A DNA stretch of 24,798 nucleotides from Candidatus Abyssobacteria bacterium SURF_5 (GTDB lineage Bacteria > Abyssobacteria > SURF-5): NCBI GenBank assembly GCA_003598085.1, contig QZKU01000104.1, forward strand, positions 1-24,798, given 5' to 3'. The notes below the pieces were generated by a model. It saw nothing but the letters and a program-made list of their open reading frames with translations. It had not been told where the DNA came from and made no database searches. Position 1 is the stretch's first letter, and every line of letters starts with the position of its first letter. Below are positions 20,219 through 23,582 of the stretch, one piece after another. A program made the position numbers and the translations under genes.

Positions 20219-20247
20219 TTGACACTACTCTCCCATTTGTGTATAGT
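20219..20247 (+). promoter_or_regulatory. Strong sigma-70 promoter of the HExxH/MoxR/VWA cassette
   Basis: TTGACA (20219-20224, perfect), a 17-base spacer and TATAGT (20242-20247, 5 of 6) form a near-consensus housekeeping promoter. RNA would begin near 20254, giving a leader of about 125 bases before the first gene. With the terminator just upstream, this makes the three-gene cassette an independent transcription unit. Confidence 0.75.
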
Positions 20248-20378
20248 TTATCAGATTCAAAGATGAGCTTTATTAGTCCCCGATGGAACTGCAGTCTTTA
20301 TCCCGTCTCAGGACACTCTTATTGTACTGACTGATTAGTGATTTGGGGCTAAGTTCACCCTATGGAGAGGCAGTGGAA

Positions 20379-20966
20379 ATGTATAATTTCTCTTTCCATA
20401 TGAAGCAGTTGATCAAGGACATTTCGCGCAGTTGTCGAGAGCTTCGTCACATTGACAGCAAGAAATTATTAGTCGCAATATCACACTCGAGGAATAATAA
20501 GAAGTATGGATTGCAGGCGAAACTCGTTCCACTCAAATTTCAGGGCGGCCGCCGGGTCATTCGTGCCAGCGGCGACTGGTACTGCAAGATGCCCCCGCTC
20601 AAATACGAGGGCGAAGATATTCTTTATGTAATCTATTTCTGCCTTCCTCGTTTCCAGAACCTTGACTTCAAAGAAAAGTTGACCATCGTTTTTCACGAAT
20701 TGTACCACATCAATCCCATGTTTAACGGCGATATTCGCCGGTTCCCCGGCAAATTCTATCAACATACGCGCTCCGAGAAAGAATACGATCAGACAGTTCA
20801 GACGTTGTCGCAAAATTATATTCGCACCACTCGCCGCAAGTGGTTGACCAACTTTCTCCTTTACAGCCATGATGAGTTGCGGCGGAAGTACGGGGATATC
20901 ACCGGTCTGAACCTTCGCTTGCCCGAACCCATCTTATTCAAAAGAAACAAAGCAAGAGCGGAATAG
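20379..20966 (+). CDS. Putative zinc metallopeptidase-like protein (HExxH)
   Basis: A 195-residue protein without signal peptide or membrane segment, so probably cytoplasmic. The key feature is FHELYHINP with H106, E107 and H110 forming an HExxH zinc motif, followed by MFNGDIRRFPGK and HTRSEKEYDQ, which could supply a third ligand (H129, E133 or D137). It resembles small 'putative metallopeptidase' proteins with HELxHI-P motifs. Such proteins may cleave peptides or be non-catalytic, and I cannot tell which. ATG 20379 has GGAGAGG eight bases upstream; the longer TTG frame from 20343 lacks a ribosome site. The MoxR ATPase gene begins 11 bases later, implying joint action. Confidence 0.75.
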   Translation: MYNFSFHMKQLIKDISRSCRELRHIDSKKLLVAISHSRNNKKYGLQAKLVPLKFQGGRRVIRASGDWYCKMPPLKYEGEDILYVIYFCLPRFQNLDFKEKLTIVFHELYHINPMFNGDIRRFPGKFYQHTRSEKEYDQTVQTLSQNYIRTTRRKWLTNFLLYSHDELRRKYGDITGLNLRLPEPILFKRNKARAE

Positions 20967-20977
20967 GAACGGCCGCT

Positions 20978-21817
20978 TTGGAAAGAAACGAAATTCAAAA
21001 CACGTACAGAATCATCGGCCGCACTGACGAACTGGCGGCGGCAATTGCCTGCATTCACCTGAATAAGAATCTCCTGATCGAAGGCCCCGTGGGAGTGGGG
21101 AAGACTGTGTTGGCTCTGGCGGCGGCTCGCCACCTGGGCAGACCTTTCTTCCGGGTTGATGGCGACGAGCGATATTCTGAACAAAAGCTTACGGGATGGT
21201 TTGATCCCCCAATCGTGCTCGCCAAGGGTTACAACCACGAGGCCTTCATTCCCGGACCGTTGACCCAGGCAATGCTTGAATCCGGTATTCTCTTCATAAA
21301 CGAACTGAATAGAATGCCTGAAGCAGTGCAAAACGTCCTGTTGCCAAGCCTGGACGAACGATACCTCGCGATTCCCAAGTACGGAGATATCCGGGCAAAA
21401 AAACAGTTCACCGTTATAGCCACCCAAAATCCACGCGAGTTTATCGCCACGAGTCACCTGAGCGAGGCGCTCCGCGACCGATTCGAGCTGATCGTGCTCG
21501 ATTATCAGCCCGCCGATGAAGAAATTGAAATCGTCCGCCTCAACCTTTCCGACGGCGCCCGTACAATTGACTATTTGATCCACGAAGCTGTTAGCATCGT
21601 TCGCGCAACACGCGAGTCTCCCAAGATCAGGCGCGGCGCAAGCGTAAGAGCGGCGATCAGTATGGTTGAATTGGCCGGCCAATTCAATACTCCGGATGCT
21701 CTCAAGAAAGCGGCTCGAATCGCTTTGCCAACTCGAATCGAGCTAGCCGACGATATCCATGAAGACGTGCGTGATCTGATTGATGCTCTGGTCGAAAATG
21801 TAAAAAAAAAGACCTGA
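20978..21817 (+). CDS. MoxR-family AAA+ ATPase
   Basis: Chaperone-like AAA+ ATPase that typically works with a VWA-domain partner to insert metals or remodel target proteins. Walker A is EGPVGVGKT (36-43 for the P-loop core), Walker B GILFINEL (103-110), sensor 1 ATQNP (148-152), and the arginine-finger region SEALRDRFE (162-170). The C-terminal lid helices include KIRRGASVRAAISMVELAG. The length of 279 residues is slightly short of the usual 310-330 at both ends. The start is TTG at 20978; no ATG occurs before the P-loop and family alignment needs this N-terminus. It ends NVKKKT-stop in an A9 run containing A AAA AAG, where a -1 shift would continue into the VWA frame. Confidence 0.9.
   Translation: MERNEIQNTYRIIGRTDELAAAIACIHLNKNLLIEGPVGVGKTVLALAAARHLGRPFFRVDGDERYSEQKLTGWFDPPIVLAKGYNHEAFIPGPLTQAMLESGILFINELNRMPEAVQNVLLPSLDERYLAIPKYGDIRAKKQFTVIATQNPREFIATSHLSEALRDRFELIVLDYQPADEEIEIVRLNLSDGARTIDYLIHEAVSIVRATRESPKIRRGASVRAAISMVELAGQFNTPDALKKAARIALPTRIELADDIHEDVRDLIDALVENVKKKT
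21802..21811 (+). promoter_or_regulatory. Candidate -1 slippage site (A9 run with A AAA AAG)
   Basis: Nine A residues (21802-21810) followed by G contain the heptamer A AAA AAG (21805-21811) with AAA and AAG as zero-frame codons of the ATPase gene, the register of the dnaX-type -1 frameshift signal. A -1 move continues as GAC CTG AAA TCG into the VWA frame, open from the in-frame TGA at 21781-21783 to 22734. An A9 run can also cause RNA polymerase slippage. I found no clear downstream stem-loop and no upstream Shine-Dalgarno-like enhancer. Confidence 0.6.
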
Positions 21818-22734
21818 AATCGGATCTCTTCTCAAATAGACGAAGTAAATCGGGCAACCTCCTCAAACTCGACCCGCCGAATGCACCCTTCAATCCACGA
21901 GATCTCGAATTTATTTCTGAATTCGGTGAAGCAGGGGATGATGATTTTGCGTGGAGAATAGCAACACAGTACCATGAAATATATCCACGGCTCCGTCACG
22001 ACTTGCAAAAACTGAATTTCGTCCGTGCTTCAGCCGTTCGCGCAGTCCTTGCACGCGCCCGAGCCGCTATCGGTTCATCCAAAAAGGAGACGAAGAGGGC
22101 ATTTGCCTCCTCTCAGGAAAAGCCCTACTGCGAATTGGACCTTGACAAAACCGTCGAGCAGGTTCTCGGAAAGCCGTTCCCCGAGCCAAGTGACCTCTGC
22201 GTCGAATATAAAGAACAGAAAAGGTTCGATTGCGCCCTTATCCTCGACACCTCTTTGTCCATGTCCGGAACAAAACTGGCGCTTCTTGCGGTCGCCGCCG
22301 CCGTCGTAGCTCTCAAACTGCCATCCGAAGATTTTTCCGTCGTCTCTTTCGAATCCAGCGCGCGGATTATCAAAACCATTCGCAAGTCGCTGGCAGTTGA
22401 GAAGTTAATAATAAAGCTCCTCGAGGTTCCCGCCGCCGGCTATACGAATATTCGGGCTGGCCTCGATGAGGGACTCAAGCAACTCAAACTTGGGCGCCGC
22501 CCGGATCGCCTCGGAGTCCTGCTCTCGGATGGCAAGTATACCCTCGGCGAAGATCCGCTTATAGCCGCGGCACGCTTTCCGCGCCTGCATGTGGTCGCGC
22601 TCGGGGACTTCAACGTAGATCCCGAATTCTGCGCATCGATGGCTTCAGCCGGAAAAGGGCGACTCTACGAAGCGCCATCCTTTGAGGGCCTGCCTCGCGT
22701 CCTGCATCGGCTGCTCGTCGACCTGCTTACCTGA
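21811..22734 (+). CDS. VWA-domain protein, probably made as a frameshift fusion with the MoxR ATPase
   Basis: A partner of MoxR-type ATPases. The MIDAS metal site is complete: DTSLS (bases 22246-22260), the Thr in GYTNIRAG, and Asp in LLSDGKYT. An ELDLDKTVEQVLGKPFPEP segment before the VWA domain is typical of VWA partners of MoxR proteins. The frame is open across 21811-22734, about 307 residues, and its first 64 codons read like real protein (RDLEFISEFGEAGDDDFAWRIA within them). That segment has no ATG, GTG or TTG; the first candidate is TTG at 22003, without a good ribosome site. I therefore infer synthesis by -1 slippage at 21805-21811, giving an ATPase-VWA fusion of about 585 residues. 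Alternatives: a homopolymer error, or start at 22003 (243 residues). Confidence 0.8.
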   Translation, partial: DLKSDLFSNRRSKSGNLLKLDPPNAPFNPRDLEFISEFGEAGDDDFAWRIATQYHEIYPRLRHDLQKLNFVRASAVRAVLARARAAIGSSKKETKRAFASSQEKPYCELDLDKTVEQVLGKPFPEPSDLCVEYKEQKRFDCALILDTSLSMSGTKLALLAVAAAVVALKLPSEDFSVVSFESSARIIKTIRKSLAVEKLIIKLLEVPAAGYTNIRAGLDEGLKQLKLGRRPDRLGVLLSDGKYTLGEDPLIAAARFPRLHVVALGDFNVDPEFCASMASAGKGRLYEAPSFEGLPRVLHRLLVDLLT

Positions 22735-23482: not shown

Positions 23483-23509
23483 GAATCGGTACTCCCCTTC
23501 TTCTTGAGG

Positions 23510-23582
23510 AGCGGGAAACGGGATTCGAACCCGCGACTTTCAGCTTGGGAAGCTGACACTCTACCAGCTGAGTTATTCCCGC
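23510..23582 (-). tRNA. tRNA-Gly (anticodon CCC)
   Basis: A complete 73-base cloverleaf on the minus strand: acceptor GCGGGAA/TTCCCGC, D arm ACTCAGCTGGTAGAGT, anticodon stem TCAGC/GCTGA around loop TTCCCAA with anticodon CCC (read from the loop), and T arm GCGGG-TTCGAAT-CCCGT. The discriminator is T, as in bacterial tRNA-Gly. CCA is not encoded (CCT follows), so it must be added by the CCA-adding enzyme. It reads GGG glycine codons. Confidence 0.95.

Follow-up and report, generated by a model that had tools for sequence, protein, structure and literature searches.

The closest described parallel to the locus reported here is fs-chlD, where a single locus yields a short ATPase subunit and, by a -1 shift within a run of A's, a longer fused one (PMC3711429). 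When chlD cassettes with 11, 9 and 7 A's were placed in E. coli, frameshifting amounted to 63, 40 and 10%, respectively (PMC3711429). A run of nine A's whose length is conserved among homologues is considered very likely to represent purposeful transcriptional slippage (Baranov et al., PMC1088944), and ribosomes are able to slide along AAA repeats (PMC4363877). As for ATPases that act with a VWA partner, the NorQ hexamer binds one NorD, and the MIDAS of the NorD VWA domain is needed for activity and has been proposed to bind the target (PMC9976466).

Here we analysed a locus of Candidatus Abyssobacteria bacterium SURF_5 (contig QZKU01000104.1). The window, by which we mean the whole stretch of DNA that was analysed, comprises 24,798 nucleotides. 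In it, a frame encoding a MoxR-type ATPase and a frame encoding a VWA domain meet at a run of nine A's (A9). Judging from sequence comparison, we are highly confident that this run is a point of frame change joining the two in one gene, a confidence that covers a frame change producing the fusion irrespective of which machine slips.

Organization of the locus

The operon and the elements of the junction are the following:

20219-20247, + strand: match to a sigma-70-like promoter upstream of the operon, TTGACA-17-TATAGT (11/12 consensus bases; a weak match, the number of matches being as in shuffled sequences)
20343-20966, + strand: zincin-like metallopeptidase, PF18894, HELYH motif (33.1 bits, cut-off 23.7)
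20978-21817, + strand: MoxR/NorQ/CbbQ-type AAA+ ATPase, 279 aa, TTG start, zero frame (AAA_5, 88.7 bits)
21784-22734, + strand: VWA-encoding -1 frame, stop to stop, 316 codons (22734 is the end of the stop)
21802-21810, + strand: putative A9 slippage site (direct read; identical length at the matching junction in both other genera)
22231-22698, + strand: VWA domain with intact MIDAS (DTSLSMSG ... GYTN ... SDG; PF00092, residues 141-296 of P0002)

Besides AAA_5, the ATPase matches AAA_3 (51.5 bits), and its Walker A (GPVGVGKT) and Walker B (LFINELN) motifs are invariant in the three genera compared below. An AAA_5/AAA_3 domain with both Walker motifs identifies it as a MoxR-type AAA+ protein, and its relatives among solved structures are the midasin AAA domains, NorQ, CbbQ and CobS. 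The 3' end of the ATPase frame reads gtc gaa aat gta aaa aaa aag acc tga, the TGA stop (21815-21817) being located one codon past the codon that ends the A run. Two heptamers stand in zero-frame register here: A_AAA_AAA (21802-21808) and A_AAA_AAG (21805-21811, including the G after the run). The latter had been noted, in this register and inside the A9, in the preliminary description of the locus, and our re-reading of the A9, the ATPase stop and the -1 frame found its coordinates and frames to be correct.

Read from 21811, the -1 frame gives 307 residues including the VWA domain. This too agrees with the preliminary description, since PF13519 and PF00092 both match the -1-frame product above cut-off. 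The section after A9 consists of an N-terminal helical-looking region followed by the VWA domain. The MIDAS pattern DxSxS...T...D is represented by DTSLS, T212 and D240 of P0002, which do not vary among the three orthologues. Modelling of the VWA half gave a low-quality structure (pLDDT 43) that was unsuitable for a fold search and lends no support. Downstream of the operon lies a tRNA-Gly (CCC) gene (23508-23582, - strand).

With normal decoding, this arrangement would produce the MoxR-type ATPase alone, 279 aa in length and ending one codon after A9. A slip within A9 would give entry into the -1 frame, and thereby an ATPase-VWA fusion of about 585 residues. One route to the fusion would be a backward shift of the ribosome by one base; the other would be RNA polymerase gaining one A (A10) or losing two (A7).

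Conservation of the junction across the phylum

The comparison set consisted of three genomes of the phylum, each representing its own genus and only three in number: that of the window, Candidatus Abyssobacteria SURF_17 (QZKI01000065.1), and a groundwater MAG (JACRIR010000173.1) whose deposited name is Candidatus Poribacteria. The locus of the groundwater MAG (L033) is common to SURF_17, and its genome (G001) was placed in the family of the window; its Candidatus Poribacteria label is probably wrong.

The ATPase and VWA pair was present in all three genomes. The junction reads GTA AAA AAA AAG ACC TGA in the window, and TCT AAA AAA AAA GAC TAG and GCT AAA AAA AAA GCT TCC TAG in the relatives. 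Each time the run is exactly A9, the VWA frame is offset by -1 relative to the ATPase, and the zero-frame stop follows one or two codons past the run, the stop codon itself being TGA in the window but TAG in the two relatives. The preliminary description had pointed to an A10 run, which would make a plain fused gene, as evidence to the contrary; exactly A9 and the -1 offset are kept in both relatives, with no A10. In both of them a -1-frame TAA directly adjoins the run, and the A9 is thus the sole possible crossover.

Runs of exactly nine A's are few in the three genomes (16, 11 and 11, both strands, genomes of about 5 Mb), a frequency of about 1.3e-6 per strand-base. That A9 is found at the junction in all three despite this rarity is more than chance. 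Third codon positions differ most between the orthologues, with dN of 0.18-0.48 over both halves and saturated dS. Given saturated synonymous sites and most of the change at third positions, an A9 that was not selected would not be expected to survive. A protein ending in KKK could by itself preserve part of the A run; the Lys codons in the ATPase and VWA genes are a mixture of AAA and AAG. The ATPase halves are 72-75% identical among the orthologues, the ATPase of the window sharing 72-74% with the other two. The VWA halves are 49-56% identical, contain no internal stop codon in any of the three genera, and have a dN of 0.39-0.48, again with saturated dS (three orthologues). These substitution patterns show both halves to be under purifying selection.

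The locus therefore has what defines a recoding gene, namely frames of fixed offset that meet at a slippery sequence, kept in three of three genera. Since the A9 and the frame change are identical in all three genomes, the arrangement looks like a deliberate two-product device, and on this comparative evidence we take it to be a real, conserved recoding site. A different use of the same run would be a contingency tract, the length of which varies in the population and toggles the fusion on and off. Long A runs are indeed prone to replication slippage (PMC1088944), but a switching tract should appear at other lengths, and the run was exactly A9 in each of the three genera. We consider such switching very unlikely.

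Other A9 loci of the three genomes were examined by eye for their flanks and frames, and among those examined no second junction recurring between genomes was found. One locus of the groundwater MAG (L060, G001:C159) carries an A9 right after ATG (ATG AAA AAA AAA CTT CTA), which seems to be a normal gene start that overlaps the stop before it. The dnaX genes of the three genomes were considered as a second A-run frameshift gene and rejected; they are single open frames, in which the longest A runs are 7-8.

Plain fused genes in other phyla

MoxR and VWA are found in one open frame, of 624-683 aa, in the distantly related families G074, G344 and G088. A virtual fusion of the two halves of our gene aligned with the fused proteins of G074 and G344 over nearly the full length, junction included (30% over 642 aa, E 1e-69), and with the G088 protein as two blocks. 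Collinearity with single-ORF MoxR-VWA proteins of other phyla shows what the frame change restores.

G344 also contains a MoxR-VWA gene that is interrupted by a frame change (L087/L068, G344:C531), in a 780-contig assembly. We considered this copy as a second frameshifted case and rejected it: its shift lies within the ATPase domain rather than at the junction, as in an ordinary break.

Could the locus described here likewise be a pseudogene, or the result of an assembly or sequencing error, with a plain A10 fusion as the true gene, or with a dead VWA half? The plain fusions of other phyla lend some plausibility to this idea, and so does the broken copy of G344, even though its shift is placed elsewhere. 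However, the same A9 and offset are present in three independent genomes of different genera, and the VWA frame has an intact MIDAS, no stops and the signature of purifying selection. Because the same A9 recurs in three genera next to an intact VWA domain, we reject the idea of a pseudogene or error as scarcely credible.

Initiation of the VWA frame

Two features are relevant to a possible separate start of the VWA half:

21943-22002, + strand: conserved coding segment (DFAWRIATQYHEIYPRLRH) ahead of the first possible start (local alignment)
22003-22005, + strand: TTG, the first ATG/GTG/TTG of the VWA frame (not conserved; no purine-rich ribosome site just upstream, ctccgtcacgac)

The TTG at 22003 is codon 64 of the post-run frame, counted from 0. 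The corresponding first ATG, GTG or TTG is at codon 114 in SURF_17, only shortly before the VWA domain, and at codon 49 in the groundwater MAG, within the conserved motif DxAWEIAxRYHD. When the ATG, GTG and TTG codons of the three VWA frames were compared, no common start codon was found. The segment preceding the first start gave local alignment scores of 62 and 61, against maxima of 45 and 42 in 2000 shuffles, and of only 20-24 in the other frames. The VWA frame is thus under coding selection without a start of its own, as would be expected of a recoded frame.

An alternative reading would be two ordinary genes, in which translation of the VWA protein starts independently or through reinitiation after termination at the junction. 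Separate MoxR and VWA genes are the usual arrangement elsewhere (NorQ/NorD), the TTG at 22003 does exist, and in the window a CTG at 21814 overlaps the TGA stop. This CTG is not conserved, however, both relatives having CTA at that place, and the first starts of the VWA frames, at codons 64, 114 and 49, fall inside or past conserved protein sequence. We reject a separate start or reinitiation at the CTG or TTG because no start codon is common to all three genomes, and consider the two-gene reading highly improbable. The preliminary description had reached a similar view. It had found the codons ahead of the TTG coding in appearance, and the protein is in fact conserved there in the VWA frame only; it had judged the case for independent initiation to be weak, which accords with the lack of a start common to the three genomes and of a ribosome site at the TTG; and the homologue with a normal VWA start, which it had named as counter-evidence, is not to be found in the two relatives.

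RNA polymerase or ribosome

Frames computed for altered run lengths indicate that A10 or A7 leads to the fusion, and A8 or A11 to short tails. The preliminary description had ascribed the fusion to -1 slippage on A_AAA_AAG. A frame change at the A run is upheld by our findings, but neither the register of this heptamer nor any stimulator is conserved. Of the three genomes, only that of the window has A_AAA_AAG in register, the relatives having AAA AAA AAA G in another register. No downstream hairpin was seen in the three junctions (z between -1.8 and 1.0), nor was a consistent upstream Shine-Dalgarno-like element, GUGGGGA being present in SURF_17 only. The composite signal of the E. coli dnaX type, in which A_AAA_AAG is accompanied by a Shine-Dalgarno-like stimulator and a hairpin, is therefore lacking at these junctions. 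In addition, each of the three genomes has a gene for tRNA-Lys(CUU), a tRNA that should make slipping on AAG less frequent (PMC4066793). With a differing register, no conserved stimulators and tRNA-Lys(CUU) present, a ribosomal shift on A_AAA_AAG is not specifically supported. What is constant among the homologues is the length of the homopolymer (A9 in three of three), as is expected of transcriptional slippage. A run length that is kept while the register moves, together with the lack of stimulators and the presence of tRNA-Lys(CUU), makes us lean to polymerase slippage.

This preference should not be overstated. An E. coli dnaX-type ribosomal -1 frameshift on A_AAA_AAG would be a sub-case of the same explanation, and in its favour the window has the heptamer in zero-frame register, A_AAA_AAA is in register in all three genomes, and chlD A-runs shift efficiently in E. 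coli. Furthermore, many bacteria with tRNA-Lys(CUU) use A_AAG motifs in IS elements (PMC4066793), and this coexistence makes the tRNA argument soft. In our assessment, slippage by RNA polymerase is no less likely than a ribosomal -1 shift. Ribosomes can slip on A_AAA_AAA even where stimulators are lacking, and this, along with the softness of the tRNA argument, makes the division between polymerase and ribosome a weak one. Our confidence is evenly balanced for RNA polymerase as the machine that slips, lower for the ribosome, which we regard as a possible source of the fusion, and lower again for a real contribution of both, which seems rather unlikely.

Proposed function

The PF18894 metallopeptidase gene adjoins the ATPase-VWA pair in all three genomes of the phylum, and is not found in the genomes whose MoxR-VWA genes are plain fusions. 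The metallopeptidase may belong to the same machine and act on its substrate. By analogy with NorQ/NorD, where a NorQ hexamer is joined by one NorD, and with ChlI/ChlD, we propose a mixed ring: a few VWA-tethered subunits would join the ATPase ring and target it to the substrate via the VWA MIDAS. The VWA partner would in this case be tethered, and made in the minority by slippage. Both the ATPase alone and the ATPase-VWA fusion would presumably be produced, and the slippage rate would set the ratio of bare to VWA-bearing subunits. It is therefore our tentative suggestion, held at somewhat less than even confidence, that the MoxR-VWA operon across this candidate lineage uses transcriptional slippage at A9 to set the ratio of bare to VWA-tethered ATPase in mixed rings.

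MoxR-VWA machines are widespread and, to our knowledge, it is not generally settled how cells control how many VWA adaptors an ATPase ring receives. A ratio fixed by a nine-base run would provide a direct handle: alter the run, and the ratio is altered. If our suggestion is correct, this would be the first recoded MoxR-VWA gene, independent of chlD, no report of such a gene having been found in a search by titles and abstracts, mostly of non-subscription papers. A further implication would be that a frame change at an A run has arisen repeatedly in the evolution of AAA+/VWA machines. The VWA half is probably labelled by gene callers as truncated or as a pseudogene, and further cases may thus be missed.

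Comparison with known systems

Phage and defence associations were considered and rejected: no phage or viral-contig relatives matched the VWA half, and PADLOC gave only weak AAA matches. In jumbo phages, a metallopeptidase, a MoxR ATPase and a VWA form one module, as in our operon (PMC7824862); there, the metallopeptidase is fused to the VWA, whereas here it is encoded by a separate upstream gene. NorQ/NorD and CbbQ/CbbO resemble our system in combining an AAA+ ring with a VWA partner that has a MIDAS, and NorQ and CbbQ are relatives of the ATPase. NorQ and NorD are separate proteins, while the VWA described here can be reached only via a frame change; a finger entering the ring pore is a feature of the NorD VWA. 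In Thermus thermophilus dnaX, slippage on a run of nine A's likewise gives two products from one gene (PMC1088944). The direction is opposite, however, since the templated A9 specifies the long product in dnaX and the short one here, where slippage would give the long product.

The likeness to fs-chlD (Antonov et al., 2013, PMC3711429; Kuznetsov et al., 2022, PMC9227772) lies in a single locus that encodes an AAA+ ATPase and a -1 fusion with a C-terminal half, and in the existence of plain fused homologues for both. In contrast to chlD signals, which usually have a downstream hairpin, none was seen at the A9 junction. The ATPase here is MoxR/NorQ-like, scoring 29-30 bits against ChlD model cut-offs of 499-779, and ChlD membership was rejected on this ground. 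Elsewhere, the same genomes moreover contain separate genes of the ChlI-like kind (363-370 aa) and ChlD-like genes without a break (732-817 aa), which score just below the curated cut-off of the model. The ChlI/ChlD parallel drawn in the preliminary description thus applies to the layout, although the gene itself is not a ChlD. The locus is a new gene family for a known recoding device and, if the frame change operates as proposed, a second AAA+/VWA family beside chlD with a frame change at an A run.
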